Shown here: piece by piece, positions 807 to 63,156 of the stretch
How the letters are laid out: each line of letters opens with the position of its first letter
Position numbering within the stretch: position 1 is the first letter of the stretch
Source of the DNA: Cenococcum geophilum 1.58
Taxonomy: Eukaryota; Ascomycota; Dothideomycetes; Gloniales; Gloniaceae
DNA: 64,000 bases
Assembly (NCBI GenBank): GCA_001692895.1
Contig: KV748176.1
Location: 4,927,092-4,991,091 of the forward strand
Reading direction: 5' to 3'
Program-made: the position numbers and the translations under genes
The notes under the pieces: generated by a model
What the model was told of the DNA's origin: nothing
Seen by the model: the letters and a program-made list of their open reading frames with translations, nothing else
Database searches by the model: none

Positions 807-1478
807 GCTAAAGGTCTAAATAATTAAATTTTAGTTAAGACTTATAACTTCGCGTATTATATTTTTATATTAAATAGTAGTATAGAGTTTTACTAGTTCT
901 AATTATAAATAAACTAATTAGGATTTTTTATACCTAGTATAGAAAATTACTATTAGCTTAGTTAAGGCGGTAAGCAGAACTAATATCTTTATAGTAGGTC
1001 TTAGTAAGGTAAATCTAACTAATTAAATAACTTTAACTAGTAGTTAAAGTTCCTTAATATCTTATATCTTATATAATTATATTATAAATATTATAACATA
1101 TTTTAAGTTCTTTTTAATTTTAAGCTTCCTATTATTATATTTTATATATTTATATTAGATAGTAATTATTTACCTTTATATTATATTTATTTAGCTAAAG
1201 TAGGCTATAAAGGGTAGTCCTTATAGAATTCTTTTACTAAAGAAGGCGTATTAGCCTTAATCTAGTTATAGGTTTCTTAGGTTTATATTTTATATCCTTT
1301 TTATTTAATAAAAAGTTTAAATTATTTAGATTATATTTTCTATTATATATTATTAATTAAGTTAATAAAGTAAGAACTATTACCGTTATTAATAATTATA
1401 AAAGGTAATAGCGGCACTTTATAAGTTAAAGGTTTACCTTTTAAAGGTTATAGTAAGTTTATATAAAATATTAGATAT
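807..1478 (-). pseudogene. G1 3' region: integrase/chromodomain tail and 3' non-coding sequence
   Basis: The - strand continues the G1 integrase tail that is broken off at 7488 by Copia A. Coding likeness fades at about 1090. The rest is 3' non-coding sequence carrying two palindromic modules, at about 914-957 and 1029-1051, that also occur in other elements of this window. Heavily mutated fossil. Confidence 0.6.
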
Positions 1479-1483
1479 ATTTT

Positions 1484-1689
1484 TATTGGGAATAGGGCAA
1501 ATTGCCACCATGTAAGGCAAATTGCCGTCACGTAAGGCAAGTTGCCGTCACGTGTCGCCGCGGCACTACCGTAGCGAGGAACCTTAAGTTCCTTGACCCT
1601 TACCCCTATCTATAAAGAATAAGAAAGAAAAATAACTATCATACTATCTACGAACCGTAGCTACGTGATATCCCCTTATAAGTCCAACA
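1484..1689 (+). repeat. Copia A 5' LTR
   Basis: 206 bp, matched by 7277-7482. It begins TATTGGGAAT (TG-type start altered) and ends CCAACA. Near its start is a threefold repeat of about 19 bp built on GGCAA(A/G)TTGCC-----ACGT, which is absent from the related LTR of Copia B. Confidence 0.9.
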
Positions 1690-2010
1690 CTAATTAGTGG
1701 TTAACTTTATAGTTATGCTATAGAACAGCTAGGTATTTACTAAAAAAAGATGAGCTACTATACCAGTACTACTCGTGCTAAGGGAAGCTGTCTTTTAAGG
1801 TTAGAACTAGTCCTAAACCTTAAATAGAACTCTTCCACGAATTTAAGGATCTAAAGGCTAGAACTAGTCCTAAGCCTTCCCTAGATTATAGATTCTTGCG
1901 TCTATTATATAGAACAACACGCTTTATAAGTCTTCGCAATTTAAGGCTAGAACTAGTCCTAAGCCCTATAATTGTAAATATACGTCACAAACGCGTACTA
2001 AATGATAATC
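1690..2010 (+). other. Copia A leader (putative primer-binding site and 5' untranslated region)
   Basis: Directly after the LTR is CTAATTAGTGGTTAACTT, which is also present after the 5' LTR of Copia B (20100) and so is a likely primer-binding region. I cannot name the tRNA. The next 300 bases have a repeated phrase, AAGGCTAGAACTAGTCCTAA and variants, about three times between 1795 and 1965. No gene is seen here. Confidence 0.5.
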
Positions 2011-3660: not shown

Positions 3661-6600
3661 TTCCATTCTATTATAAAGTTAGATATCTTTAATAAGCCAA
3701 AGGAAAGTTTTACGTTCTCCTTTAATAATAGATACTTGGCAAACGTCTTCTATAGTATTATACCAGATACTAGAGCCGCAGGAGTATCTATAGTAGGAGA
3801 ACCTTAAGTTTAAGCTCTTTAGCAGCTTAATAGCTCTGTTTAAATTAACTAATTAACGGCAGGCTAATATATAATTTGCTTTAGTAAGGGTACTATAATA
3901 TTTTTTGGTACAATTAAGGTCCAAACCCTATTAGGATATATTACCTTCTATATTATTCCCGCGAATACCCCATTCCTATTCTATATCTAAGATATAAATA
4001 AATTAGGTATTAAGCTTAATAACCTTAAGAATATACTTATTTAGGGAGATAATTAGGTGCCCGTTGTACGTAAGTAGGGTTATCCTTAGTTGCTTCTCTA
4101 ATAACCAGAAAGGAGTATTACTTAAAGTCACTTAACTAAGTTAGAGCTACGTTAACTATACCGTTGTTTTAGCTACTTATTTATTTACTAACTATTTAGG
4201 GTTCTTTAACGAGCAGGTTATAAAGTTAAGGTTAAGGTAATTAAGCATCTTATAAAGTATTACTATTACTACTAAATAAACTAGAAGTCCCCTAGCCGAT
4301 TTAAGTTTACCCTTAAAGATAACTACAACTTTAACTTCTGTATTATTATTAATGTTATATATCTTAATGGTAAGCCAGTCCTTTAAGCTGTTAACTTATT
4401 AACCTCCTTCTAAGCCGTACGTTTCTTAAGGGATATATTAGCTAGAAATGTATAGGATACCCTTTAGTTATACTAGATTAATATCTACCTAGAACCCCCT
4501 AATTAAATTATTTATAATATAGGAAAGAACTTCTTATCTACGGAGTTTTAATAATAGGTAAAAATAATAGCAATTAAGGTTAAGGAAGTCCCTATTAAGG
4601 CATATAATAGTATTAGAAAAGTAGAGCAATACTATATACTATTACGCTAAATATATAAGATTATTTCTTTAGAACTAGAGGACGCTAGCAAAAAAATTAT
4701 CTTATAGATAGCTATTAAGGCCATTAACAATTCCGCTAGCCTAGATAGGCTTATACCTATATTACTAGTCTTTAACGCCTACCCTTAAATAACTAACAAT
4801 TCTCTACTATCTCCCTTTATTATATAACGAGCTAAGGCTATTTATAAAGTAATAAAGGAGATATAACGTCTATACGCTATACGCTAGGTTAATAACGTAC
4901 TAGGAATAAGAAATGGCCTAAATACCTTAACTATACTTAATCTGCCACTCTAATCTAAAGTACGGGTATGGCGTAAAAAGGGAGGATAGTTAGGCCTATA
5001 TAAACTTATTACAATTAATAGTTAAACTTATACTCTTTAGATGCCCTATAGACCTACTTAATTCTATTTAACTATTATTAGGCCCTACTATAAAGATAAC
5101 AGTTCCAAGCCTTTATAGGATGCCCTAAAAGATACCCTAGAAGATGCCCTAAAGAAGAACCACAATTAATATACCCTAAAAGGCGACTGTAATCCTAATA
5201 TAATTATAGTAGATGTGCCATAACTATAACGCGGTAGAGGTCGCCCAAAGGGATTATAAAATTACTAACATCTTATTAATTTTAAAGAGCAATTCGTTAC
5301 TGCTATAGAGAGTAAAGTTGAGTTATTAATGGCCTTTATAACAGCTAAAAAGAAGGCTAACTTTAAGCTTACAAAATAGCTTTAAAAGGAAGGTTGTATT
5401 ATAACTCTAGGAGCTCCTTTCTAAGCATCTAATAAATAGGAAATCGACAGTCTCATTATAAGAGGAGTCTTTAAATTTAAGAAGTATAACCCTACTAAGT
5501 TTAATAGAATTTGCATCTTTAAGTTAAGAATAGTTAACGAGATTAAGGGTAAGGCTACTAACGCCCTATTTAAGAAATTAAGGCTTATTATTTAAGGTTA
5601 TAATAATAATAGTAAGGAGGTAATTCTTATATAATCTCCTATAATATAATAAGCTAGTTAGTAAGTTATTATTACACTAGCTCCCTTCTTAATAAAGAAC
5701 AAAATAGCAGTTTATTTATAAGATATTACTTAGGCCTATACCTAATTAGAGACGCGCCTTTAGCGCTTAATACTAGCATACCTTCTAGAGTAAATTCGCC
5801 ACCAATATCCCGAAGATACGATTATAGTTATACTTAAGCTACTATATAGAATTGCAGAAGCAGGAACTTATTAGTGGGCTACCTATAGCAAGCACCACAA
5901 AAAGAAGCTTTTAATAACTACTTCTATATTTAATCCCTACTTCCTTATTATAACTACAGGAACTCTATTTAGAATTATCGGCATATAAACTAATAATATA
6001 ATTATCTTAGGAGACGACCAATTCTTAGCTCTTAAAGAAGACAAGTTAGTAAAGGCAAATCTTATAGCAAAGCTAAAGGAAAAGCTTAGTTTAATAATAC
6101 TATTACTCTTTAATAGATGCATCCTCTCCCTAAATAAGGATTCTATTACTCTATACTAGAAGGGTTAAGGCAAGAAAATTAATATTATTAACGCTAATTC
6201 TCTAAAGTAAGAATATGTGGAGCAACGCGCTTACGGAGCTTATATTACTTCTATCTATTAACCCAAGGCTTTATTTAATCTCTCTATTACCACCCAATAC
6301 TAGGAACCAACTAAGGATAATATCCTTGCCCTAAATAAGCGTCTTTTTTAGCAAATAAACCATCTCAATTAGGGACTACTCTATATACCTATTAATCTTC
6401 CTACCGCTAAGCTCTTTGTATTTATTAATAGATCATTCGCAAATAATAAAGATTTTAGCTCCTAGTTAGGATATAAGATCATCATTATAAACAAATTTAC
6501 TAGAGAGAATAACTTCATAATCTATAGCAATCTTATCTATTAGAGCTCAACTAAGAGCAAGCGCGTTACCTAAAGTGTTTTAGCATTAGAGATATATAGA

Positions 6601-6930: not shown

Positions 6931-7276
6931 GTTAAAAGGGAATCCCTAGAAATTTCTTAGTTATATAAGGTCTTAAGATATCCAAGAACTTTAACCAGCG
7001 GTTAAAGTTATCTAATTAGTTAGATTCTCTTACCAAGACTTTTTAGAGCATAACATTCTATAGACCCTAACTTAATCCAGCCAATTAGGATTTTCCATCC
7101 CCGGGATAGAAAATCGCCATTAGCTCGCTTACTGCTAGCGCCTTAGCAGCCTACCCGTCTTCGCCAACTGCTACATTATCGCATAGTATTTAGTCTTATC
7201 ATATACTATCTAGTATCGTTGCATCCTATCTGTTTATATATATATAAATAGCAACCATAAAAAGAAGAGTTGCCAG
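6931..7276 (+). other. Copia A 3' non-coding region with two palindromic modules
   Basis: Between the end of pol and the 3' LTR lie the palindrome AACTTTAACCAGCGGTTAAAG (6987-7007, continuing TT) and the palindrome built on GGATTTTCCATCC (7081-7122). Both recur in other elements of the window. TATATATATATAAATAG at about 7235 resembles a TATA box, but its role is not shown. No gene. Confidence 0.6.
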
Positions 7277-7482
7277 TATTAGGAATAGGGCAAATTGCCG
7301 CCATGTAAGGCAAATTGCCGTCATATAAGGCAAGTTGCCATCACGTATTGCCGCGGCACTACTGTAGCAAGGAACCTTAAGTTCCTTAACCCTTACCCCT
7401 ATCTATAAAGAATAAGAAAGAAAAACAACCATTATACTATCTACGAACCGTAGCTACGTGATATCCCCTTATAAGTCCAACA
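7277..7482 (+). repeat. Copia A 3' LTR
   Basis: 206 bp matching 1484-1689, followed by the duplicated target ATTTT. It ends in CCAACA. Confidence 0.9.
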
Positions 7483-7487
7483 ATTTT

Positions 7488-7967
7488 TATTTTAGTTAAT
7501 AGTTTAAGCTTATAAGTATATAGGCTTAGTTTCTTCTTAATTTAGTATAAACCTATAAACTTCTAGTCTAGTTTTTTTAAGAGTTATTAAGTCTTTAGGT
7601 TTTATATATTTAGGTAAACTATATTACCTTTTTTAAAGTCCTATATAAGAGCTTGTCCTTTATTTATATACTATTTTTATACTATTTAAGTATACGCTAA
7701 TTTACTTTATAATAGTTCCATTAACTACTTTATTTAATTAGTAAAGTTATATATATTAATTAGTTAAATCCTTTTAATTATAGGTCCTATTATATTAATT
7801 TTAGGTTATAGTTTAAATTTAAGTTAAGGGTTTTATCTATAGGTTACGTAAAACGGTATTATACCTATTAATTCGTTTCTTATATTATTTATAATAAACT
7901 TAGCTAAAGGTAGCTACTTTTCCTAGTTATTTTATAGGTAGGAGTAGTATATTTATAGGTATTATTC
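7488..7967 (-). pseudogene. G1 integrase C-terminal part
   Basis: Read on the - strand, this holds the AEF-YNN block and the PFY-TY (PFFANYG-like) block near 7820-7930. The later PSKKLD--F-G-Y block, which lies before the chromodomain in Gypsy elements, is near 7545-7600. It is the middle of the G1 integrase tail, bounded by the Copia A and LINE 1 insertions. Fossil. Confidence 0.75.
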
Positions 7968-13758: not shown

Positions 13759-14480
13759 AGATAAGATATTCAATTACGCTGTTGCAGCTCCCATTAGGGT
13801 CTATATAGCGAGTCTATATAGGTATATATATATAAAAGGGAAACCGTATAGCTATAGCCGGATAAAACCTCTCCTTCTACTATTATGCGGCCTATATAGC
13901 CTCTCTTCTAAATAGTAGCTGCTAAGCATAAGTAGACGTCTCCTTAAGGCGCTATAGAAAAGCCATCTTAATACGTACTTATAGGTCCGTTTAGTAGGGT
14001 ATATAGCTAGGGCCTAAGTTCCGTCCTAGTTAATTTAGTTATCTAGGTAGGGCAAGGGCTAATAGCCCATAAGGCTAGTAGTGTAGAAGTCTATACACAG
14101 CTCTATAGCTCTATAGCTATAATAGTACTAGGGCGTATTACCTACTAAATTCTATTAAGTTCTGCTAAGTTCTACTAATTTGCTAAATTCTACTAAGTTC
14201 TGCCAACTTACTAAGTTCTACTAAATTCTACCAAATTTTGCTAGCTTGCTAATTTCTGCTAATTTCTACTAGCTTACTATATTCTACTATATTCTGCCAA
14301 CTTATTACATTCTACTAACTTTTACTAACTTGTTAAGTTCTACTAGGTTCTACTAGCTTACTAAGTTATACTAAATTCTACCAGATTCTGCCACACCTAA
14401 GTATTCTACTATATTCGGCAGATTGCCGTAACATTGCCGTAATTTGCCATACTTTACCGTACTCTACTATCCTCCTCTTC
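13759..14480 (-). repeat. LINE 2 3' region with degenerate TTCTGCTAA-type tandem array
   Basis: From about 14140 to 14420 the + strand is built from variants of TTCTACTAAGTTCTGCTAAA, repeated about twenty times with a 10-14 base beat, with an echo of TTGCCGTAA repeats to 14460. It lies in the 3' untranslated part of LINE 2. The same TTCTGCCAAATTCTGCC phrase occurs in the LTR and 3' region of Gypsy G5 (about 55940, 62640, 62975). No gene. Confidence 0.65.
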
Positions 14481-25500: not shown

Positions 25501-25709
25501 TAGGAGATATAGCAATTTAAGAGCAGCTAATTAGGATTTTCCATCCCCGGGATAGAAAATCGCTATTGGCTCGCTTACTACTAGCGCCTTGGCGGCCCAT
25601 CTGTCTTCGTATTAACCCCTAACGTTCTTCTTCTTCTTCGCTTAGTATCTTTATATAGCAGTAATCTATAAGTGTATATAGATAGCAACTATAAAAGAAG
25701 AGTTGCTAG
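25501..25709 (+). other. Copia B 3' non-coding region with palindrome
   Basis: Directly after pol lies CTAATTAGGATTTTCCATCC and its mirror half (25527-25570), the same module as in Copia A, G1 and element E. It is followed by the tail ATTGGCTCGC------CTAGCGCCTTGGCGGCC, parts of which recur in the G5 LTR. No gene. Confidence 0.65.
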
Positions 25710-25875
25710 TGTTGGGAATGAGGCAAGCGGTCGTCACGTGTTGTCGCGGCACTAGCGTGGCGAGGAGTCTTAAGCTCTTCGCCCTTCCTTAATTCTATAT
25801 AATCAAGCATTATTAACAACATTACTGTATCTACTCGAGTAGTACTAGTGAGGGAGTTACCCTATGTTACCAACA
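25710..25875 (+). repeat. Copia B 3' LTR
   Basis: 166 bp matching 19934-20099, followed by the duplicated target ATTAT. Confidence 0.9.
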
Positions 25876-28250
25876 ATTATTTTTTATTAATAGTATAACT
25901 AATTATTACGGATTTTATATTTAGAAAGTATAATATCCTTATATTACTATTTCCCTATTTAAATTACTTTTATTATATCTACTATCTAAAGGTTATTTTT
26001 ATATTTATGCTCTATTAATTTATTAATTTCTATATTCCACTTATTAATTTCTAATTTATTCCTATTAAGCTCCATATTTAAAAATATAAGGTGTAGTTTC
26101 TTAAAGTATTTAGGGGGTAATCGAATTTATAATTAATTTATAATCTATTTATTAGAGGTATTTATAGGTAAGTTTTATAATTATTATATTAATAAGTTAG
26201 GCTTCTAATTAAGTTTACTAGGTTAGTATATAATCTTAAAGTTAAATTATAAAAGGTATTTAGCCTAATTAATTTAGCACTATATTAATTGCTTTATAGT
26301 TATAAAGTACTATAAGTTTTTATAGTCCGTTAATACGCGTATTAGGAATAATAATTCTTTAAATTCTAAACGCTATTATTTAAAATATCTAATAATTATA
26401 AGTAGTTCCTTATTATATATCTTATAGTTTAATTTAATAGGGGTAAGTTTTTAGGAAAGAAAGGCTACTAGGTATAGCTCGCCGTTCTTATTATATTATA
26501 ATAATACTCCTTCTAATATATAATTAGATAAGTCTATTTTAATAATATATTTAAGGTCTAGATTAAAGTAGGTAAGAATTAAAATAGTTATAAAATAATA
26601 TTTTAGATTATTAAAAGCTTATTTATATTTAATAGTCTATTTAAATTTTATATTCTTCCTTATTAAGTTTACTAATAGCTAAATAATTTTTAAGAAGTAA
26701 TTAATAAATTAATAGTAGAAATTTACAGATTTTAAAAATCCTTAAATATATTATATACTACTAAGACTTTCCTAGTTTATAATTATAGCAATTTTTTTAG
26801 GGTCTATTTTAATTCTATTATAGGATATAATTAGGCCTAAGTATATAACTTTAGATATATAGAACTTATATTTCTTAATATTATATTATAAGCCTATATC
26901 TTATAGGCGTTTAAGGACTATTTAAATATACTTCTAATACTTAAAAAGCAAAAATAAGTAAATTAAGATATTATTAATATACGCGGTAATAAATATATTA
27001 AGGAATTTATAAAGTGTATTATTAATATATTACTAAAATATACTAGGACTATTTTTTATACTAAATAGCATTACTAGGTATTTAAAAAGTCCCTATTATA
27101 TATAGAAAGCTATATACTTCTTATCTCCTTTATAAATATAGATTTAATTAAAGGCAGCGACTATATTAAGCTTTATAAAGTATTATACTTTTACTAAATA
27201 GTTAAGCGTTTCTTAAAGCAGAGAAATTAAATATTGGTTTTAAATTATAATTATATTTAGGGCTTAATAATTAATATAAAACTTTAAGCCTCCTCTAGGT
27301 TTCTTAATAAATAGTATAAATAAGGTAAATAGTAATTAACTAGGGTAAATAAATCCTTTCTTTAAGTGCTCTTTAAGGTATTATTATATTATAAGCAGCT
27401 CTTCTTATAATATACCGTATAATAGGCCAAACTTTAGCATTATACTAGGTTTAAGTTCTATTTTAAAATTATGCTTATCTTAATATAGGAATAATTAGTC
27501 TATAAATTATTTTTTAAACGTATTAATTAGATTATAATATTCTTTAGGTATAAGAGGTTAGGGGTTAATATATTACTTTAGTTTTAAGACCTTTTTAATA
27601 TCTTTTAGTATTATAATAAAGATTTTATAATCTTATTTTTTTTACTAATAAATAAAAGGGTACGGCTTATACTATATAAAATTTAAGGGGTTTTAATATA
27701 TTATCTTGCATTCTTTACTATAATTAGTAGTTATAACTTTATTATATTAGTTTAGGGTTTATAGTAAGGGTGATTTATATTATATTAAATTTAAATAGTT
27801 ATATATATATTTATAGGGTAAGTAGTATTTTAAGTAATAACTTTAGTAGTAAGTTATACGGAATTTTAGTATTTCTTTAACCTAGCTAATTAAANGGTTA
27901 TATTATTTTAGCTATCTATATCTAAGTATTACTTTATAATACTTTAAGGGTATTATAAATAAGGAAATATATTTAAGGTATTTACCTATCTGTATTTTTA
28001 TAAGAGTATAGTATATTAATTCGCCGTATATTAAAGGCTTACTATTAAAGCCTTATAGGCCTTAGGGCTTATTAAGTTTTTTTTTAAATTTAAGTATTTA
28101 GTTTTTATATAGTTTATATTAATAAAGCCTATACTAATAGCTCCACTATCTATAAGGATTTATACTTCTTTCTATTTTTTAAATATTTAAATTTTACTAA
28201 GTATATTAAGGGAGTTATATTATATATTAGCGCTAGAAGAGCCTAAATAC
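25876..28250 (-). pseudogene. G1 pol: RNase H, RT and protease
   Basis: The - strand shows, from right to left: a protease DSGAISIGFIN block at about 28165-28125; RT about 27500-26650 with the active-site block TAYINNILIY near 27000-26960 (YLDD or YIDD in relatives); and RNase H with a T-YKNL-YF-T-K-L-type block near 26350-26270. It is followed by the Copia B insertion at the start of integrase. Heavily mutated fossil. One unresolved base is at 27895. Confidence 0.75.
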
Positions 28251-29798: not shown

Positions 29799-31783
29799 CT
29801 AGTGGGGCCGCTACTATATAAGTAATAAATAACTTCTAGGTAAAGGTCTAGGGCGTTAAAAATAAAGAGACGTTAGCGGAAGTAGATCTGTTTATTAATA
29901 ATACTATATTCTAACTTATCGCAACAAAGTAATTTCCTAATCTTCTTTAGCTACTAGCGAGCTTTCTAATTATATAGGGCCGCTACTATATCTTTTATGT
30001 GTTTGTTCTCCTAGTATTCTAACTAGATTAACTTATCTAGTAACTTTTTAGCTATTTTAGAGTCTAGAGCGGCTATAAACTTTACGTTATTAAAGTTACG
30101 GGACTTATATAGTAATTCTTTTAAGATTATAGGGTTAACTTTCTAGGGCAGTATAACGACTTAGGCTTAGTAGCGGAGGCGTTTATTATTAGTATCCTTA
30201 GGCCTTATTCCTAGTAGCTAGCTTAGGGCGTTAGGGAGCGTAGCTTTACTACTAGGTCTATATATAATTATAAAGTTAAACTATAAAAGGAACTCTACCT
30301 ACTAGACTTAGCGCTAATTTAGCTACTTAGTAGTTATAAACGTCTATAAGTTTTTATAGTTAGTAATAATTTTAAACGGCTTTTTAGTCCCTTATAGCTT
30401 AGGACGCCATTCCTTTAAAGGCTTAATAATAGCTAAGAGTTCTTTATTATAGATCTTGTAGTTATACTTTAGTATAAAGTGCTTTACGGAGAAAAATATG
30501 ACCAGTTTTAATTTACTATTGTTGTTATATTGGGAAAGGACTCCACTAGAAGCCTAATTTAATACATCTGTCTCTACTACTGTTTTCTTTATATAGTTAG
30601 AGTATGCTAATACTAGTACTAAGGTAAAGGCTCCCTTAAGGGTATTAAACAATTTAGCTTATTTTAGTCCCTATAGTTATCTAATATCCTTCTTTAAGAG
30701 TTTTATTATAGGTATGGCGATGGCAGAGTAGCCTTAAATAAATTATTAGTAGAAGTTTGCAAAGCTAAGAAATTGTTATAGTTCTTTAATTAATATTAGG
30801 TCCTTTTATTCCCATAAGGCCTATACCTTCTTAAAGTTTATAGTTATACTATTAGTTAAGATAATTAAGCCGAGGTATTTTGTTTTTATAGAGTAGAACT
30901 TAAACTTATTAATATTAATCTAAAGTCTAGTATTACTAAGTCTTTAGATAACTTTATTTATATACTTAGTATACTTAGCACGTATTTTAGAAAAGATAAG
31001 GACGTTATTAAGGTAGGCAGTATAGTAGTTATTAAGGGCGTTATATAAAATATAACGTATTCCACCAGCAAGCCGGCCACCCCACCAAGCCGGCCACTTT
31101 TTTCCCCACTAAAAATCGTAAAAATCGCAATACAATATCTTAATAACCACTTAATAATAATTTCTAAAAATTTATCTTTAAGCTTGCATATATACTCTAC
31201 TTTATTTGCTTTAATTTCAGATAAATCTATTAAGTAGTTTTAAAGATATATAGTTTTTGATCGTAAATTCTACTCTAATCTTAATATCTTTATAACTACT
31301 TAATAGATTTATCTAAAATTATAGTAAATGAAATAGAGTATATATGCAAGCTCAAATATAAATTTTTAGGAATTATTATTAAGTGGTTGTTGAGATATTA
31401 TATTGCGATTTTTACGATTTTTAGTGGGGAAAAAAGTGGCCGGCTTGGTGGGGTGGCCGGCTCGTTGGTGGAATACGTTAATTAATATAGTTTTAGAACG
31501 TAGCGGGTGCGTTATAAAGGCTAAATAGTATAACTAGTATCTTATAGAGTCTAAACTGGGTAATAAATGCTATAAGCTACTTATAGCCCTTCGCAATCCG
31601 GATTTAATTAAACGTAGTAATTATATTAAGTTTAGTAAAGTACTTAGCACTATAAAGTGCGTTAAGTGTCTTATAGATTAGTAGCAGTAGGTACTAATTC
31701 TTAATTATAACTATATTTAGGCCTTAGTAGTTATAGTAGATTTATATACTACTGCTAGGCTTAGTAGTAAGGAGGAGTAGTAT
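29799..31783 (-). pseudogene. Gypsy G2, part 1: RT, RNase H and start of integrase
   Basis: - strand Gypsy pol. RT is at about 31783-30900, with the active-site block YLNNVLIFSK near 31010-30980. RNase H has the ITNYKNL-TFITTK block near 30360-30310. The linker and the integrase entry end at 29799, with text like LHSSGPTGHPG cut after the T. It is interrupted by a MITE (31055-31478) inside RT and by element E at 31784. The remainder of G2's integrase should lie to the left of G1 on the - strand but is not there. Fossil with many breaks. Confidence 0.75.
31055..31478. mobile_element. 424-bp foldback MITE, TA duplication, in G2 RT
   Basis: The ends are near-perfect inverted copies starting ACGTATTCCACCA, followed by GAGCCGGCCACCCCACC and AAGCCGGCCACTTTTTTCCC. 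The inverted repeat extends through almost the whole element (about 200-base arms, centre near 31265), so it can fold on itself. TA flanks both sides (31053-31054, 31479-31480), the target of Tc1/mariner/pogo elements. It has no coding capacity, so it would depend on a transposase made elsewhere. Arms differ at roughly a tenth of positions. Inside the tip, AGCCGGCCAC is repeated twice in direct orientation. Confidence 0.9.
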
Positions 31784-31823: not shown

Positions 31824-34559
31824 CAGTGGTCTCGATGATGAATGAATGAATAAATAGGCCTAATATCGTATTCAATTCATAAGCCAATCAGAATATCGCG
31901 ATATGAATGAATAATCGCGATATTGTAGATATAGGCAATATCAACAGTCTTGGCATGGTGTTGTACCTAAATTGATCTAGGCGACGTCTCTATAGAGTCC
32001 TCTACCCCTTCCCTCCCCCCCTTACATTCACCAGTAGCTGCCTCCTCCAGCCTTGTACAACTCCTCCTCTTACCCACGACTTTAAGCACTCCGATCGCTC
32101 AATATTCGCTGGCCTAAGCTTCATCCGTTACCAAGTAATTGTCCTTCGAGCTCCGGAAAATATTCGCTCTGGTTCAGCTGACATAGGTGGTATAGATAAG
32201 ATATCTATTGCCATACGGTAGAGCGATGGGTAGTCTACGTGATTGCTTGGATTAAGCCACCAATTAAGGGCAGTAGTACCAGCAGGAAGATTGGTAGGGG
32301 AGGCGTTGATAAAGTGTTCAAATTTATCCTTAATCGCGTTAAGGATTGACTGCTTCCTATTCCATATATTGTACTCGTTAGGCTCCTAATCGCGAGCAAT
32401 ATCTTCCTCTTCTGCTTGACTTGCATACTTATCCTTATACTCATTTACCCAAAGCCTCCGGGCCGCATTAACTACGGGCTTCCTCCAAGAAGCTTTCCAG
32501 TTGCGATCGATGTAGGCCTTCCTACGGTGAGGAGCCAATAGTAAGGCTGCGCCGTACACGGTAACTTCGTCGGTCTTAAGGTAGTATTTATTAAAGGCGT
32601 GCCAGCTGGTTCGAATGCAGTCGCAGAGCTTTGGGTTGGCTGCGTACTTATGTAGAGCTGATTTAAAGTGCTCTACTATAAAATCCATTGTATAAAGCAC
32701 CTTATTAAGGGTAGCCTTGTCACCTTCCGTCTCTTTTGTAACTCTCTGGAAGGGCTGTAGGAAGTCTCTAATATTTTTAAGAGCTCTCCAATCGGCGGCG
32801 TTAAGGATGTCCTCCTCATCAAATTCCTTAACATACTGCTCTTGATATTTTGCAATTGTGTCTTTTAATTTAAGAGCCACTAAGATCATATGATACCACG
32901 AGTTCCACCGTGTGTTATTATCTATAGGAATAGCTCGAAGAGCGGTCGCGACAAAGTAATTGTAGTGGGCGTTAGAGCTTTGAATATGTATAATAACGTT
33001 ATGCAACTTTCCTAGAGGACCAATCTGGCGATAAGTAAACTGGCTGGCCTTCCCTTTTTTAAACCTTTTGGCAAGGAGCTCCTTAATCCAATCGTCCTCA
33101 AGATCTAACTCTGCCTCAAGCTTCTTGCGAGCCTCCTTAAAGGCAGCGTCAACGGCTTCCTTATCCTCTAAGAAGAAGAAAGCTTGTGCGGCTATATTAA
33201 GTACGTGCCCATGGCAGCGAATACGGTGTTGCTGTGGATCGTATTAAGCTTCTGTCCCTGCTTTCTAAAGCCTCTTAAATAGCTCTCGAAGAAGTTTATC
33301 ATTACTGCCGTGATTATCGCCTACATAGTATCCAACCTTGTTAAGTATTTGGTAGTCCTTGAGGACTTGCCAGAGGACTTCCACCTGCTTGTCGCCGCCG
33401 TGTTTACCAGGAAGGAAAGGTAGAGCAAGTAGAGCCTTCCGAAGTACGCCTGTATCGTTAATAAAGTGACTGCAGATTGCAATAAAAGTCTTTCGATTTG
33501 GCGAAGTCCAGGCGTCAAGTGAGAGGTGTATTGACGTAAGAGAGGACTGCAGCTTTTGCTTAAGAACTTCCTTATCAAGGACGTAGGACTCCTCAATTAT
33601 TCTAGGCACCGTAGTATCGGAGTCTATTAGAGCCTCTTCGCAGGTGTAGTTTACTGTAAGAAGTAGCGCTCGAAGCTCCGGCCAAGTTACTGCCTTATAT
33701 GGTAGATTTCGAACCACAATTAGCTGTGCAAGGGCATCGCGTACTAGGGCTGGATTTACGCTCTCTCGTAGTATAGTGTCCTTCTGCCTTTCAAGCTGCT
33801 GCGTATGAAGCTCTCCTTGCTTGTGGAACAGGCCCTGAAGACTCTGCTGTGTGGCCCGCTTAATAACTGAGTCTTCCTCTTTAACAACTACGCCGTGGGC
33901 ATTAAATAGATGAGTGCGTATATTTGTGGTGACTACATCACGCCAAAATACACATTGCCCACAGTACCAGTATCGCCTTCCTTTACTATTTACAAGCGGC
34001 TTACTACCAACAGGCTTACGCGCGAGAGCCCATATATTTACAGCCCGAACTTTCCGTTTTTTATGGGCCTGTTCGAAGGATTGGGGGGAGGATTGGGGGG
34101 AGGACTCGGAAGAGAGTGACGCGTCGCATTCTTCGTCGGGATTTAGGTCTTCAAAGAGCTCGCTTTCAAGCTCAGATAGTTCCGATTGGGCGTCAGAATT
34201 GCTATCAGAGTCAATAACAATGGATTGCGAGAGAGAAGGAGGCATGGTACTAAATTGTGGTTGGTATTAGGGGGGGGGTGTTAAATAATATTANAGAAAG
34301 GAAGCATCTGTGGGCGAGTCTAAAAAATTTGACTCTTGCGTATATATCAGAACGTACAGTGTAAAACTGGTCCTGTGTTTACACCTCAGTATCCTTTTAC
34401 TACACCCTACTACCCCATGAGAGCTTTAAGTCTCTATATATATTTATAATCTTATGAATATTCATTCATAAGGGCTATCAAAATATTCAATCATTATCAC
34501 TCCTTATGAATGAATATATCGTTAAGAAGCAATGAATAAAAATATCATCGAGACCACTG
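31824..34559 (-). mobile_element. hAT-superfamily DNA transposon, 2.74 kb, complete ends
   Basis: Terminal inverted repeats of 16 bases (CAGTGGTCTCGATGAT at the left, its complement at the right end) and the 8-bp duplication AGTCACGG. A single - strand transposase frame fills most of it. It retains normal CA/TG content, in contrast with the sequence around E. Subterminal regions (31840-31960 and 34440-34555) are rich in ATGAATGAAT-type short repeats, a common feature of hAT ends where transposase binds. It sits inside the 3' LTR of E, so it is younger than E. Confidence 0.93.
32002..34245 (-). pseudogene. hAT transposase with BED zinc finger, interrupted by four in-frame stops
   Basis: One frame runs 748 codons from the ATG at 34243-34245 to a stop at 32002-32004. 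Residues 1-60 are acidic and serine-rich. HKKRKVR (61-67) looks like a nuclear signal. Residues 92-118 form a BED-type finger (C95, C98, H112, H117). The RNase H-like core begins with SLDAWTSPN (D244, the usual first catalytic Asp) and has GDNHGSND (D310, second Asp). RIRCHGHVLNIAAQ follows, and near the end SAEPERIFSGARRTITW is the hAT dimerisation motif. In-frame stops lie at 33265-33267, 33244-33246, 32386-32388 and 32128-32130, all TAG or TAA, so this copy is unlikely to make a full enzyme. The length fits the Ac/Restless group. The longest clean piece is the first 326 codons. Confidence 0.9.
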
Positions 34560-34570
34560 AGTCACGGTGC

Positions 34571-34612
34571 TGTCAGTCAGTCAGTTAGTCGGTCGGTCGG
34601 TCGGTCGGTCGG
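34571..34612. repeat. (GTCA/GTCG)n tetranucleotide run in the E LTR
   Basis: About ten units of GTCA then GTCG. The sister LTR has the same run at about 40556-40606 with a different unit number. It is a natural length marker between the two LTRs. Confidence 0.8.
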
Positions 34613-34772
34613 TCAGTAGAACAGTCAGTAAGAAAGAAAGAAAAGAGTGTATTTCNGGTAACTGGTAGAGTCGTGATATGTATATNATAAGGGAAGAAGG
34701 AAGGAAGCCGAAGGCTCTATAAATATAGGAAAATGCNAAGACAGTAGGCGACGTCCAATCTACACCACTATA

Positions 34773-37188: not shown

Positions 37189-37902
37189 TCATGCTGCTGC
37201 CCTTGTACAGGTCCCCTCCTTGCCGTGGTATCCGTTCTCGTCGTGCAGCTGGCGCAGTACTGAATTCGGATGGCAGTGACAGTCGTGCTGCGATCAGTCG
37301 TCGTTCGATTAAGGAACAAGGTCGGCCCGGTCGAAGGCTCTAATTTGACGACATTCGACTGATTTGATTCAGTGACGGCGACGTGCTGATATCGAGGCTC
37401 TGCTTGATTCGATTCCTCGACTAGTCGTGGCCCCTGTGTAGTCAATCGTTTGACCAAGGCTTCCGTGCAGTCATTCGATTAAGGCCCTGCGTGTAGCTCT
37501 GCGTCGTACAATCGGCTCTATATCCGTGCAATCAATTGAGGCTCTCGGTATCCGTTCTCATCGTGCAGCTGCATCATCGAGTTTTAGGGGCGGTGTAGAG
37601 TTCTGCCGGCTCTATTGCTAATTGGACCAATTAGGATTTTCCATCCCCGGGATGGAAAATCGCTATTGGCTTGGTAACAGGTGGTAAGCTGAACTGACAT
37701 CTCTGTAGCAGGTCGTCGCGATTGACGCGTCTCGACGCGTTGTAATTAAGAAAATAAATAAGAAAAGGAGCTTTAGGAAATATAGTAATTAAGCAGACAA
37801 ATAGAAATCTTTTTATACGGCCGTTACCTGCACCCTCTCCCCCACCTTAGAACTTGACTGTCCCTTAGTCAAACATCCTACACCTGCTGCGGAGCCTGCG
37901 GG
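37189..37902. other. Element E 3'-of-gag region with palindrome
   Basis: No gene recognised. At 37627-37670 lies the best-preserved copy of the shared palindrome: CCAATTAGGATTTTCCATCC, a three-base centre, and GGATGGAAAATCGCTATTGG. It keeps CCAAT and ATTGG at the two outer ends. It lies about 230 bases after the gag stop. The block GGTCGGCCCGGTCGAAGGCT near 37321 is the third copy of a repeat also at about 35775 and 36330. Confidence 0.6.
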
Positions 37903-39830
37903 TTAATGGCTGACCTGGTTAAGCGTCCGTCTCCAAGACCGTCTCCAAGGGTCGAACGATTTATTCTTCTTCCAAGCTTTAGCCGTCTCATCCGCAGGCC
38001 GTGACCTAATCTGGATGGAATCTCCTGATCGTACATTCTTCTGCGGCGGAGCCTGCGGTACCTGCTGCGGAGCCTGCTGCGGAGCCTGCGGCTTAACGAT
38101 TGTCCTGGCCGTACGGCTGTCTCTAAGGGTCGGGCGAGTCTGCGGACGTTGCTGGCTGGGCGTTACTACTAAGTCTGTGGGCCGTACTTGATAGCAGTCC
38201 TCCCAGTTCGTACGCATTTTGTCACTGTTCTTCAGCACTACTCCGTCATGGAAAGCCGGTTGCTGCGTCTGTTCTTTCCTTGGCCTATCTGGGTTAGTTC
38301 CTTGGTACGTACGCAGCCAGTTCTTAATACCCTTTAGCTGTCCTTTATTGCCGAGCAGCGGGAGTTCTGGTCCAGGTTGATCGCGTGTCCCAGCTGCTAG
38401 TCTTTCTTGATCGGATAGATGCACAAATCCTTGCTGAACGAGATCCTTTAGGCCTTGGCATTCGAATTCAGTAAAACGGTGACCTCCGCATCCAAAACAG
38501 GTCTGCCAGCCTTGTCTTTGTGTGCCTTGCTGACCCTGTGCGTCCCACTGCGGCCGTCCAAAGGCAGTAAAATCTTGCGGATATTGGGAGCCTTGCGGAT
38601 ATTGAGAGTCTTGCGGGGGTCGGGTGCTGTTCTGCCAGTCTTCGTATCCTAGTGCTGGGCTGTGAGCTGTAGCCTGATCCGTGGGTGACTGCTGCTGCAT
38701 TAGGGCTCCTCCGTGTACACCTAGTCTAGCTGGGTCAAGAAGTCCTCCTTCCCTTTGGCGGTCGAGCCTATTCCTTTGCTGCCGTAGCTCTTGTATAAGC
38801 TGGACATTCAGGACATCTTCTTCCAAAAGGACAGCCATTCGCTCAGCGTTCTCTGTAGCCACTATCCTTGACTCTACGGCCTCCTTCAGTCTTTCGAACA
38901 CAAAGGTGCTAGGCTTGTCTACTACGGCTCCTGTCCTTTCTATTGCATGTCTGCTGTATTCAATTGGGAGTCCTCGCATAAACCACCGCCCCTTCTCTTG
39001 CTTAGTAAGGTTTCCTGCGGCTACCGCTTTAGCTGAGATACTGGTGAAATCTTGCATATAGTGACGCAGATCTCCTGGCTACTCCGCTGACTTCCGAACG
39101 AAAGCTTCCATAAGTCCCTTGTCTCCATGCGCCGGTAGTAGTCGTCCGCTCGGTATTCTGCCCTAAGCTTTCTCACAAGCTCCGTCCAATTGCCAGCTGT
39201 GAATTCAGGCAGGCTTCGGACCCACATCCCTATCCAGTAATCGCAGTACTCCGGAAGGCCCTGGTGTTTCTTACTTGTTACATGATATCGGGCGCATAGC
39301 CGTTCGTACTGCTCGATAAACTGCGATATATTCTGTCCCGTAAAGTAAGGAGTTCCAACAGTTCCTGGGGCTGGCATCGGCTAAACCATGACGTAGATCT
39401 TGTCTTGAGCCGTCGACTGCTGGTCATAGGGTGGTGCATCTAGAGTCTCCTTGGGAGCTTGCAGGTGGTCCTTGCGGCCCATATCCTTCGTCTGCTGAGG
39501 GTTATCGGTCCTAGGGGTCACGGGTAAACGCTGCGGTAGGTCTGCTTGCATAGCTGCCTGAGATGAGGGTGTCCCAGATGGCTGTCCTGGTGTTGGTTCA
39601 TGCTTCGGCTGGTCTACTTGTACGGCCATGTCCCTAACAGAGGCCTGCCTCTTGACGCCTGAGGGGGGGTCTCCCTGGGAGAACACAGAGTCCTCATCTA
39701 CTGCTACTGGGTCTTGATTCGTACGTCCGTTTCGGACTGCCGTCGTTCCGCGCGGTAGGGTGCTGCTAAGCCTCCTGCTTTTACTCGTATCTACTTCTTC
39801 ACGGAACGCCTCTAGAGCTGCTGCTGACAT
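37903..39830 (-). pseudogene. Element E gag
   Basis: About 640 codons of - strand gag in three open pieces (39381-39830, 39021-39377, 37903-39057), with about two breaks. The middle piece has the retrotransposon gag capsid-like stretch: YFTGQNISQFIEQYERLCAR near its start, then YWIGMWVRSLPEF and WTELVRKLRAEYRADDYYRR. The last piece begins with a helical stretch (NAERMAVLLEEDVLNVQLIQ). It then has a glutamine/proline-rich linker, a short cysteine motif CFGCGGHRFTEFEC that resembles but does not exactly match a CX2CX4HX4C knuckle, and a basic tail. Gag forms the particle that packages element RNA. No pol follows. The N-terminal 150 residues are low-complexity. Confidence 0.75.
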
Positions 39831-40049: not shown

Positions 40050-40510
40050 GCTCGGTAGTAGATCTCGGTAACTCCAGCCGCCGGTTAAAGTTGTCTGATT
40101 GGCTTGCTGGTTCGCCCGACCTCCTTATATATAACTTTCCGAGACCCTTCTCTTCCTGTGACTAGGTCGGTAACCGAGTTAGTAACTAAGTTAAGGTGGC
40201 AAAGAAATCCGATTTAGGTTAATAGACCTATAGTCTTTTGCTTCTTGTTGCCACTCTTTGGCCTATGCGTAAAGTCTAGCTGTCCTATCTTTTTCCGGTA
40301 CTGCCTAGTTCCCCTTGCTGTGCGATACTGCCTGGTTCTCTTCTGCTGTCTTGTCTGTCTAGCTGGCAGTTCTTCTGTAGCTGGTCGTTCTTCTACAGCT
40401 AGCAGTTCTTCTGTAGTCGTAGTATATTCCTGCGTGTCTCCTGTGTATGTAGCACTAGACTTCTAATCTAAAGAGCTTGCTGTTGTCCCCACGTGGAATG
40501 CCATAAAATA
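40050..40510 (-). other. Element E leader with second palindrome
   Basis: The untranslated leader between the 5' LTR and gag. It contains CCGCCGGTTAAAGTTGTCTG (from about 40078), the less mutated relative of the AACTTTAACC/GGTTAAAGTT module. Next to the LTR, the - strand reads TATTTTATGGCATTCCACGT, the position of a primer-binding site; the tRNA is not identified. A + strand 73-codon frame at 40245-40466 is low-complexity and is not called. Confidence 0.5.
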
Positions 40511-40759
40511 TGTGGGAGGGTACGACCTCTCTAAGATAGGAAAGTCACGGTGCTGTTAGTCAGTCAGTCAGTCGGTCGGTCGGTCGGTCGGTCGGTCGGT
40601 TAGTAGAACAGTTAGTAAGAAAGAAAGAAAAGAGTGTATTTCTGGTAACTGGTAGAGTCGTGATATGTATATGATAAGGGAAGAAGGAAGGAAGCCGAAG
40701 GCTCTATAAATATAGGAAAATGCTAAGACAGTAGGCGACGTCCAATCTACACCACCACA
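40511..40759 (-). repeat. Element E 5' LTR
   Basis: 249 bp, begins TGTGGGAGGG and ends CCACCACA on the + strand, giving the inverted ends TGTGG/CCACA. Followed by the duplicated target GTAT. Matches the split left LTR. Confidence 0.88.
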
Positions 40760-53050: not shown

Positions 53051-55912
53051 ACCCGTAATAGGAACTACTACTAAAAAATAATATAAAAGCCGTTCTATAA
53101 TTAATTGCGGAGCTATTAATAAATTTATAGATACCTAATTTGTATATACTTATAACCTACCTACCTTACCCCTTACTAAAGCCCGCGCCTTATAACTCGC
53201 TAACGGTAGTTATACCGCACAGAAGATTACCTATATAGTATAACTCTACCTAGATATAAATGGGCACTAGGAAGAACTCTGGGCCTATATTATACTACTT
53301 ACTAACTACCCTATTATCCTTGGAATAAACTAGCTTAAATAATATAACCCCGCCATTAACTAGAAAAAGAGAGAAGTAACCTTTAACTTTAAATACTGTA
53401 GAGAGACCTGCTTAGGATATAGCCTAGCCGCCTCTATTTACTTCCTAGGATACTAACCTAAGGAACCCTTTATTACCCTACCTATAACTAACTACTACTA
53501 TATAAGTACCGCGGCCTTCTACCGCATAGCACGTAAGAAAGGCTGGACCGTTACTATAGCCTCTTAATTACGACTATATAAGCTTAATAAAGAATAGGAC
53601 TACGTCCTCTATAGTAATAGGATANATATAGTTNACCTNTTAGAAAANAATNCCCCNNTANAACTCTATNGACTTTTACCTTTAGACTTTAAGAAGTTTA
53701 TAAAGCTTAAAAAAGGACTTACTAACGAGAAACTCTGTAAGCTCCTCCCTAAGAGGTACTATAACTTTATTAACGTATGCTTATAAAAGAGCGTAGATAT
53801 ACTCCCCCTACATTAACCTAATAACTATACTATTAATATTAAATAAGGAAAAATGCCACCCTATAAGAGACCCTACTTAATATTAAAAGATAAACTTCTA
53901 GTTATTAAAAAGTATATTAACGAGCACCTTAATAAAGGGTTTATTCGCCCTAGTATATCCCTAGTAGCCGCCCCTATCCTCCTTGCTAAGAAGCTAGGAG
54001 GAGGTATTTAATTCTACGTTAACTATAGAGGACTTAACGCTATTACGATTAAGAACTAATACCCCATACCGCTTATACGTAAGACTTTTAAGCGGCTTAG
54101 CTAAGCTAAAATCTATACTAAGCTTAATATTATTACCGCCTTTAACCGCCTCTAAATACAAGAAGGTAATAAATGGAAAACCGCATTCGTATCGCGCTTT
54201 GGCCAATTTAAATATACTATTATGCCCTTTAGCGTATATAACGGCCTAAGCAGCTTCTAAAGCTATATTAATAACGCCTTACGGGACTACCTTAACGACT
54301 TCTGCTCTACGTACCTAGACGATATACTTATTTATAGCAACGACCCCTCTAAGTATACTAAGCACGTTTAAAAGGTCCTATAGCGCCTTAGGGACGTAGG
54401 ACTTTATATTAATTTAAAGAAGTGCGAATTCTTAGTTATAGAAGTAAAATACCTTAGACTAATTGTTACTACTAAGGGTGTCTGTATAGACCCTAAGAAG
54501 GTATATATAATTACTAAATGGCAAACCCCTAACTGCATTAAAGATGTATAAGCTTTCTTCGGTTTCGCCAACTTTTATTAAAAATTTATATATAACTTCT
54601 TAGGTGTTATAGCACTACTTATAGCAATAATGCGAATAAAGGGCCTTTCCGTAAAAGAAAGAAAAATATATTTACGTTTTATCTGGACGCCTAAATATAA
54701 GAAGGCGTTCTAAGACCTCAAAGATACTTTTACTAAAGCACTTATCCTAGCTTACTTTATATTAGGACGATAACTTTATCTTAAGACTAACTCTTTAGAC
54801 CACGTTAACGTAGGCGTTCTCTTCTAGATAGGTAATAATAGTCTCCTCCACCTAGTTGTATTCTATTTGTCTAAGCTTACACTATAAGAATGTAACTATA
54901 AGATCTATAATAAGGAACTTCTTGCGATTATATAAGCGTTCAAGGAATTCTAACTAGAACTCTCCTTAGCAGAACCTAACTAGCCAACTAAAGTCCTTAC
55001 GGATTATCGTAACTTTAAGTACTTTATAACTATAAAATAGCTAAACTAATGCTAAGTATACTGGAATAAGTTCCTCTCTAGTTTTAACTTTAAAATTGTA
55101 TATAGGCTAGGAGTATAAGGTATTAAGCCTAATAGCCTAATACGCCGCTTATAAGACCTTCCTTAGTCTAAAGATAACCCCTATAACTAGTTTCAATAAT
55201 AGACGATCCTAAAAGCACGGAATTTGGCCCTAGGTATGCTACCTATAATAGAGCTAACTATACCTTAGCTCTATACCACAGAACTAAAATTACCTCCTAA
55301 AATTAATGAGCTTATTACCACGGCATATAACACCTCTATTAACCTATTACTGCATTAACTTATTGCCGTAAAGACCGCTAGCGCCTGTATGCTGCTAACT
55401 AAACTCTAAAGCTTAGGCTAGATTAATATAGTAGCCTTAGAAGTAAAAGAGAATAGGCTCTATTATAGAGGCTGTTTATTTATCCCTAACTTAGAAAATC
55501 TATAACAGTAACTAATCTAAATAGCCTATAACCTTTAATTAAGCGGCTACCTAAGTAGAGGAGGAACCTATAAGCTTCTTAGCCGATACTACTTCTGGCC
55601 TAAAATAATAGACTTAGTTAAACGCTTTATAGGCGCCTACTACGGTTATAAGTGCGCTAAGGCCTTTAATATAAAGTACTAAGGACTACTATACCCTTTA
55701 CTAGTACCTATACAATAATAGGCAGATATCGCTATAGATTTCATTGTTGACCTACTACCCTATAAGCGACATGGTCGTACCTATAAGAACATCCTTATAA
55801 TAATATACTAACTTATAAAAGAACGCTACTACGTCCTAACTAAAGGCGTAGCTGTTAGCGACGTCACTAACGCCTTCCTTTACGAAATCTACCGATTATA
55901 TAGGTTACCTAA
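53051..55912 (+). pseudogene. G4 pol, first part: protease, RT, RNase H, integrase start
   Basis: Protease about 53090-53350 (IINCGAINKFIDT, later PIILGIN-L--YNP). RT about 53850-54460, with GFIRPSISLVAAPILLAKK, FGQFKYTIMPF and the active-site block TYLDDILIYSND near 54308-54343. RNase H about 54760-55120 (KVLTDYRNFKYFITIK). Integrase entry (SRYYFWPKIIDLVKRF near 55580-55625) and core (DIAIDFIVDLLPYKRHG near 55725-55775). Interrupted by G5. Fossil; the RT is unusually readable. Confidence 0.82.
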
Positions 55913-56123
55913 TGTAACGGCGCTATCGCACGTTACCTGCCAAATTCTGCCATATTTTGCCGACCTGCGATTGGCCCGCCTAAAGCTAGCGCCTTAGCGG
56001 CTTACCCTATATATTTGTTTACATTAGTCCTAGCGACCCCTTTTCCTTCTCTTTAGCTTAGTATCTTTGTAATATAGCATTCGTTTAAGCTTCGGTTTAG
56101 AGGCATTTGTTTAAGCCGTAATA
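55913..56123 (+). repeat. G5 5' LTR
   Basis: 211 bp, begins TGTAACGGCGCTATCGCACG. Contains a TTCTGCC-type triple repeat near its start and GCGATTGGCCCGCC followed by CTAGCGCCTTAGCGGC, similar to the tail of the palindrome module in Copia B. Confidence 0.9.
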
Positions 56124-62530: not shown

Positions 62531-62945
62531 TAGACCCCTAAAGTACCTAGATAAATAGATAGAATATTAGTATAATAAAGACAATAAGTTACTGGAAGAA
62601 TATAGGGATAAAAACGCCCTAAAGCCCTAATATAGCTATCTGCCAAATTCTGCTATATTCTGCCGTTTTCTGCCAGTACCGTAAAATTTCAGATATTTAG
62701 GAACTTTAACCGCCAGTTAAAGTTATCTAATTAGTTAGATCCATGCTAAGACTTTTAGCGGCTACTCTTTCTAGCCTAGTGCTTCCACTTAGCCTATAAT
62801 CGCCCTTTATACTTAGTTAGGACGGACTTATATCCCCTTTATCTCCTTATCTTATATTTTTATAATCCTACGTTTATAAGCCTAGTGCTACCCTATTTTT
62901 TCTAACTAAGCCTAAGGGTAGGCTTTCTTTTAAAGAGGGGGGTAA
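62531..62945 (+). other. G5 3' non-coding region with palindrome and polypurine tract
   Basis: After the pol tail comes TCTGCCAAATTCTGCTATAT (62639-62658 region). Then the palindrome AACTTTAACCGCCAGTTAAA (62702-62721, continuing GTT) with the same following phrase TCTAATTAGTTAGAT as in Copia A and G1. The polypurine tract at about 62930-62945 is next to the LTR. No gene. Confidence 0.6.
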
Positions 62946-63156
62946 TGTAATGGCGCTATCGCACGTTACCTGCTAAATTCTGCTATATTCTGCCGACCTG
63001 CGATTAGCCCGCCTAAAGCTAGCGCCTTNGCGGCTTACCCTATATATTTGTTTACATCGGTCCTAGCNACNCCTTTTCCTTCTCTTTAGCTTAGTATCTT
63101 TGTAATACAGTATTCGTTTAAGCTTCGGTTTAGAGGTATTTATTTAAGCCGTGATA
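62946..63156 (+). repeat. G5 3' LTR
   Basis: 211 bp matching 55913-56123, followed by duplicated CCTAA. Three unresolved bases (63030, 63068, 63071) correspond to A, G and C in the 5' LTR. Confidence 0.9.

Follow-up and report, generated by a model that had tools for sequence, protein, structure and literature searches.

A CCAAT-flanked palindrome common to Gypsy LTRs and the 3′ non-coding sequence of Copia elements in Cenococcum geophilum suggests a control module passed between unrelated retrotransposon families

The window, by which we mean the whole 64,000-nucleotide stretch of Cenococcum geophilum 1.58 DNA analysed here (contig KV748176.1, positions 4,927,092 to 4,991,091), contains two Copia elements (A and B), a Gypsy region at its left end (G1), a gag-only element (E) and a Gypsy element toward its right end (the window Gypsy). 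A palindromic module of 44 bp, here called P, occurs beside or within four of these. Two classes of P copies were told apart by the sequence that follows: R-a, in which P is followed by CGCTTACNNCTAGCGCC, and R-b, in which it is followed by GGNGGTAAGC. The features are as follows, in window positions.

914..957, plus strand: RIP-degraded module adjoining Gypsy G1, R-b class, with an ATACC/GTAT variant on both arms
1484..1696, plus strand: 5′ LTR of Copia A (repeat D9), its end judged to be at 1689, with the GalEa-type hairpin sequence from 1690
6987..7009, plus strand: second palindrome, Q, in Copia A; the surrounding block matches Gypsy 62688–62756
7081..7124, plus strand: P in Copia A, in sense orientation, past the coding region and ahead of the 3′ LTR
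7128..7153, plus strand: R-a tail after P in Copia A
7277..7489, plus strand: 3′ LTR of Copia A (repeat D9)
25527..25570, plus strand: P in Copia B, in sense orientation
25707..25906, plus strand: 3′ LTR of Copia B (repeat D11)
34572..34768, minus strand: 3′ LTR of E (repeat D10), oriented from the ORFs
37593..37714, plus strand: 122-bp stretch of E similar to 880–1000 in the G1 region, comprising P and its R-b class flanks
37627..37670, plus strand: P in E, R-b class, antisense to the gag-like ORFs
37903..39830, minus strand: gag-like ORFs of E (37903–39057 and 39381–39830)
40559..40755, minus strand: 5′ LTR of E (repeat D10)
55910..56123, plus strand: 5′ LTR of the window Gypsy, without P (repeat D8, from alignments)
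62943..63156, plus strand: 3′ LTR of the window Gypsy, without P, preceded by the purine tract AAAGAGGGGGGTAA

The window also holds a long inverted repeat at 31044–31489 (213-nt arms, 90% complementary, 20 nt apart), two ORFs of 206 and 326 aa on the minus strand of 32386–34245, which we take to resemble a hAT/BED-type transposase, and at 14143–14419 an array of TTCTGCCAA/TTCTACTAA-like units that by eye resembles the left part of a Gypsy LTR (CCTGCCAAATTCTGCC).

P was found at all four places named by an earlier note on this DNA: 37627–37670, 7081–7124 (7081–7122 in the note), 25527–25570 and, in a more mutated form, 914–957. A search of the window with the 28-base core of P (≤3 mismatches) returned six matches, which are the first three sites on both strands and do not include the copy at 914, and none in 100 shuffles. 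P is a perfect 27-bp dyad with an inverted CCAAT box 3 nt from each side. RIP produces transitions, and the computed composition of this genome is RIP-like; with RIP allowed for, the left arm reads RRCCAATYAG, 3 nt from GATTTTCC, and the right arm, on the opposite strand, RRCCAATAGC, again 3 nt from GATTTTCC. Among 26 copies, the left box is preceded by RR in all 26 and is CCAAT or its RIP form CTAAT in all 26, and the right box is ATTGG or ATTAG in 24; intact boxes are rarer, with CCAAT in 15 of 26 and ATTGG in 11 of 26. A Copia subfamily (L023 and L025; L and C numbers denote loci and contigs) has ATTCG in place of the right box, and the string of this variant lies at C1:5070449 (L023) and C2:5971645.

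Genome-wide, the 27-base palindrome (≤3 mismatches) occurs at 1974 places in the 177.19-Mb assembly, with none for the reversed pattern. At the same threshold, and again with reversed controls of 0, the whole assembly holds 2001 R-a and 660 R-b places; the R-a tail requiring only CTATTNGCT of P occurs at 2318. The published figure for the genome of this fungus is 177.57 Mb, about 10% of it GalEa, with 2368 GalEa sequences over 3 kb (PMC5445492). We read 26 copies of P, four of them from the window and the other 22 from 20 loci. The first 15 loci, like the 20 long ones, were taken from the top of the list of exact palindrome matches, ordered by contig (C1–C4), and hence are a non-random sample; besides the one in the window, 20 of 50 listed places were read over a long stretch, and L016b, L026a, G1, Copia A and Copia B were chosen without an exact palindrome match. 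Within this sample, 23 of 26 copies could be assigned to an LTR or to the 3′ region of a retroelement, the three without full placement being L022, L026a and G1. Most lie in Copia 3′ non-coding regions and only 2 of 26 in Gypsy LTRs. In about 262 kb, 35 local palindromes were found, and 28 of them fall into three groups, P (21), Q (4) and one other (3).

The Copia carriers belong to several families. CTAATTAGT, the sequence of the GalEa Conserved Hairpin Site, is found next to the end of the 5′ LTR in both Copia A (1690) and Copia B (20100), the LTR end being seen as CCAACA in A and placed by analogy in B. CTAATTAGT or CTGATCAGT directly after the 5′ LTR is a described mark of fungal GalEa Copia elements (PMC5445492), and both elements carry it there. 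Of the 26 P copies, 11 belong to the clade of A and B, these two included, by colinear similarity over 4.3–5 kb upstream (2.6 kb in L016b, where the locus ends); L033 has only the last 370 bp in common with them. Since A and B are one clade, both with the GalEa hairpin sequence, the window shows three lineages rather than the four unrelated elements first proposed; the sharing across superfamilies stands, and the independence of A and B does not. A more distant family (L016, L018 and L024; about 56–61% over up to 2.9 kb) has P at the corresponding position, and L016, a relative of A and B alignable over 2.9 kb, matches a six-sequence copia profile (E=1.8e-7); a Pfam search of the RIP-broken pieces of Copia A gave no RVT_2 or other match. 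In a third family (L020 and L021) the Copia RT is on the strand opposite P, that is, P is antisense; P is spanned in each of the best 40 scored of 3659 candidates, the query itself included, about 260 bp from where similarity ends. L026 has an antisense P 227 bp beyond the end of an open frame that resembles the RNase H end of other Copias (61–64%), and L029 and L032 are short elements bounded by Copia-type LTRs with P near the 3′ LTR.

The gag-like ORFs of E are on the minus strand, so P in E is antisense relative to Copia A and B, and it lies 2.9 kb from the 3′ LTR. 'Gag' is the label of the earlier note; the 384-aa ORF has no Pfam match above the cut-off. As in the L020 family, P is spanned in the E family in 40 of the best 40 scored of 1959 candidates (query included). 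P is thus present in both orientations, antisense in L020, L021, L026 and E, a difference between families that the earlier note had missed. Stretch 37583–37705 of E is similar to L026 39–163, again P with R-b class flanks, and this R-b unit of about 120 bp is common to E, the G1 region and L026. By eye the unit of L026 lies upstream of an LTR-like start. The unit was considered as an LTR start after GATTTAGGTGGCGG and rejected: all 40 scored hits of the L026 stretch are near full length, with no LTR pairs within 10 kb, so P there resembles an internal 3′ feature. In G1, P lies 76–125 bp beyond 789–838, where similarity to Gypsy relatives stops, and because that similarity ends before P, the tie of P to the G1 coding region is uncertain.

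P also lies inside Gypsy LTRs. Positions 4971–5202 of L028 form a 232-bp sequence with ends TGTGACGG...CCGTCACA (TG...CA) and a GTACT duplication on both sides, in which the dyad of P begins 45 bp from the start. A query of 2.1 kb round this sequence found ten unoccupied sites, in which the flanks are joined without the insert to within −12 to +17 bp.

Unoccupied sites 1–4: C1:4548473-4549448; C34:496811-497786; C54:79790-80766; C92:34341-35319
Unoccupied sites 5–7: C26:1115280-1116242; C26:1097345-1098379; C58:479391-480352
Unoccupied sites 8–10: C3:5329-6309; C1:2108129-2109028; C29:1896125-1897027

The duplication and the unoccupied sites identify the 232-bp sequence as a solo LTR. Both bracket the whole LTR, and no target duplication was seen round the 44-bp module itself. 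Furthermore, with the LTR of L027 as query, the best 40 scored of 3585 candidates hold eight same-strand pairs 5719–6501 bp apart, where about 0.03 such pairs within 7 kb would be expected among 40 hits by chance (an estimate).

L027-type LTR pairs, bp from start to start: C2 5752; C72 5726; C14 5723; C11 5724
The remaining pairs: C6 5732; C4 5719; C49 5727; C5 6501

The matches of all 16 paired LTRs run across P and change in length by no more than 4 bases. In Pfam, pieces of L027 give RVT_1 (E=1.3e-22), with Integrase_H2C2 (E=1.2e-7) downstream of it, which is the Gypsy order. The L027/L028-type host of P, of the R-a class, thus has direct terminal repeats, RT before integrase, TG...CA ends and a 5-bp duplication, as Gypsy LTR elements do; the LTRs with P measure about 230–255 bp and the elements about 6 kb. 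A tRNA-derived SINE was considered, since the R-a tail, read on its reverse strand, resembles a D-arm by eye. It was rejected: an Rfam search of five 3-kb loci gave one match (E=0.032), below gathering and away from P, and the L027 and L028 copies are LTRs. In the window Gypsy, which is 83% alike inside, the LTRs are of this type and lack P, which makes P a presence/absence part of this LTR type. The proposal that P always lies in 3′ non-coding sequence stands for the families in which its position can be read, with the qualifications that P also lies inside Gypsy LTRs and that the link to G1 is uncertain.

Gypsy-type blocks lie beside some of the Copia copies. Of 17 P copies tested against the 3′-terminal part of the window Gypsy, five (A, L019, L030, L031 and L034) matched on both sides of P with order and orientation kept; L019, for example, matches Gypsy 62675–62756, including palindrome Q, and 63000–63065 inside the LTR. 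Matches were confined to the left in L016b, L017, L022, L033 and L035 and to the right in L023 and L026, G1 matches in reverse, and E, L016, L020 and L026a gave no match in this comparison. By eye, the intervening stretch of L017 and L019 reads as TTTTTTTAGAGGGGGGAG followed by TATAACATTC... or TATGACATTC..., a purine tract and an LTR start. These Copia 3′ regions may therefore contain a fossil Gypsy 3′ end, to judge from their sequence. Palindrome Q itself, AACTTTAACCGGCGGTTAAAGTT followed by a CCAAT-like box, occurs at 6987–7009, at 1029–1051 (reversed, in the G1 region) and at 62702–62724 (in the window Gypsy), and a more diverged Q-like palindrome was seen by eye in E at about 40074–40110.

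Our main reading, to which we give a probability of roughly 0.45, is that P is a U3 cis-regulatory palindrome of Gypsy LTRs that was captured by other retroelements. The source would be the start (U3) of a Gypsy LTR. Pieces of a Gypsy 3′ end with P would have entered the 3′ non-coding regions of GalEa Copia and other Copia families, and the same kind of capture, in either orientation, would account for the R-b class lineage and the gag-only element E. The route was probably template switching during reverse transcription, or insertion of a solo LTR followed by trimming, and the chimeric families would have amplified afterwards. Template switching has been put forward for complex LTR insertions in the Triticeae, as a possible route for mixing parts of LTR retrotransposons (PMC1950507); here it would have placed Gypsy-type 3′ ends in Copia. 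With only 2 of 26 copies in Gypsy LTRs, the direction of transfer is weakly grounded, and P could have entered the Gypsy LTR instead.

As to function, P would most likely act at the DNA level, as a docking site from which a CCAAT-binding or dimeric host factor drives or enhances transcription in either orientation. The CCAAT-binding complex prefers such box contexts. The dyad symmetry, the position at the LTR start, the paired CCAAT-like boxes and the occurrence in both orientations favour a DNA-level site. Outside LTRs, P cannot belong to the 5′ promoter, and an enhancer role there is a candidate only. Of the functions suggested previously, a binding site and an RNA hairpin both stay in play, with the sequence features leaning toward the former.

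The main rival, which we consider unlikely, is that P would function as a hairpin in RNA, toward the 3′ terminus of the genomic transcript, in packaging, export, stability or the control of reverse transcription. Orientation would be immaterial to it, since either strand of a palindrome forms the hairpin. At the start of the Gypsy LTR, in Copia 3′ regions and in the L020 family, P is indeed close to the 3′ end of the RNA, and in E it is downstream of the ORFs. Predicted folding is strong in several copies (z of −4.4 for L028, −3.8 for L027, −3.6 for L017, and −3.0 for both the plus strand of E and L026a), and L028 and L026a have outer stems of differing sequence round the inner stem. A paired substitution is also kept in the arms, whose covariation the earlier note had proposed to check: for one dyad pair, with C/A and G/T allowed, there are 140 otherwise exact matches, and the 100 listed comprise 97 C-G, 3 A-T and 0 broken pairs, a result that suits the main reading too. 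However, z is only −1.9 for the transcribed (minus) strand of E, −2.3 in L016 and −1.8 in L020, where the strand folded was the one opposite its RNA; outer stems are not general; the E copy is 2.9 kb from its 3′ LTR; and a stem would need neither the unpaired RR, which is conserved, nor the mismatched TAG/GCT stretch.

It is more doubtful that P is a functionless passenger, carried with a piece of Gypsy LTR by chimeras and nested fragments and conspicuous because it was searched for. The copies were indeed selected by P, the segments held in common have several lengths (to about +72 and about +185), and 16 of the 20 long loci lack an open frame of 180 aa. Moreover, among the 11 copies of Copia clade I, coding and left-flank blocks are conserved like P: transversions per site are 0.6% in coding sequence and 0.7% in P, 26 of 38 coding blocks, each of 49 columns, equal or exceed P in conservation, and the left flank of three A-type copies has none. 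To the right of P the same clade has 3.6% in the R-a tail and 3.2–4.4% further on, and this 3–4%, against 0–1.2% in P, speaks against a passenger; counted by columns, the difference between P and the R-a tail is not significant (1/49 versus 2/26, p=0.27). The comparison across families also counts against hitch-hiking: the core from −3 to 46 is common to Gypsy, several Copia families and E, with flanks at chance level. For 15 copies chosen to represent the families, with columns scored for transversions, pairwise identity is 91.5% in P (99.0% without transitions) versus 25–34% in the flanks, and transversions affect 3 of 49 columns of P, 27 of 27 on the left and 40 of 40 on the right. Two of the three lie in the inner 27 bp, which was the search key for most copies, so invariance there is partly due to the way in which the copies were chosen; the 22 outer columns, which are less biased, have one. 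That P is spanned by all scored members of the E and L020 families also speaks against a passenger.

The 'tiny element of its own' of the earlier note, a small MITE- or foldback-like palindrome that moved into each of many elements separately, would fit the alignable Gypsy LTRs with and without P and the two orientations, and is nevertheless very improbable, because no target duplication was seen round P, the duplication and unoccupied sites of L028 bracket the whole 232-bp LTR, P is spanned in 40 of 40 scored members of the E and L020 families, 23 of 26 copies are assigned to an LTR or retroelement 3′ region, and the R-a tail accompanies P in 2001 places.

The closest known kind are the repeated motifs of Sirevirus Copia elements, which are palindromic dyads upstream of the TATA box in LTRs and clustered 5′ of the envelope gene, conserved between elements with diverged flanks and proposed as factor-binding sites (PMC2829016). 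They share with P a non-coding palindrome, dyad symmetry and diverged flanks; they are described there for plants and Copia only, in many copies per LTR and with a CGG-CCG core (PMC2829016). P, by contrast, is single in each LTR or 3′ region that was read, is flanked by CCAAT boxes and belongs to both Gypsy and Copia elements of a fungus; many copies per LTR with a CGG-CCG core were not found. A later paper on maize Sirevirus palindromes reportedly exists. The GalEa Conserved Hairpin Site is likewise a hairpin in non-coding sequence that distant families of a single host have conserved, and is described for GalEa and at the primer-binding-site position after the 5′ LTR (PMC5445492). P differs in sequence, is also in Gypsy LTRs and lies on the 3′ side in Copia A and B rather than at the 5′ LTR junction. 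Among the matches listed from the open-access literature (titles and starts of abstracts), module P was not named and one palindrome common to Gypsy LTRs and Copia 3′ regions was not found.

Palindromic control motifs were already known within single retrotransposon lineages. It is possible, if rather doubtful, that P is a portable control module of both superfamilies, a single switch that one host factor would bind in Gypsy LTRs as well as in the 3′ regions of Copia and gag-only elements, kept by selection in either orientation. If true, the sharing of P would mean that control modules cross superfamilies and that several families could be switched jointly by a single host factor. P would also help to test how a large genome affected by RIP came to be filled with Copia and Gypsy elements.
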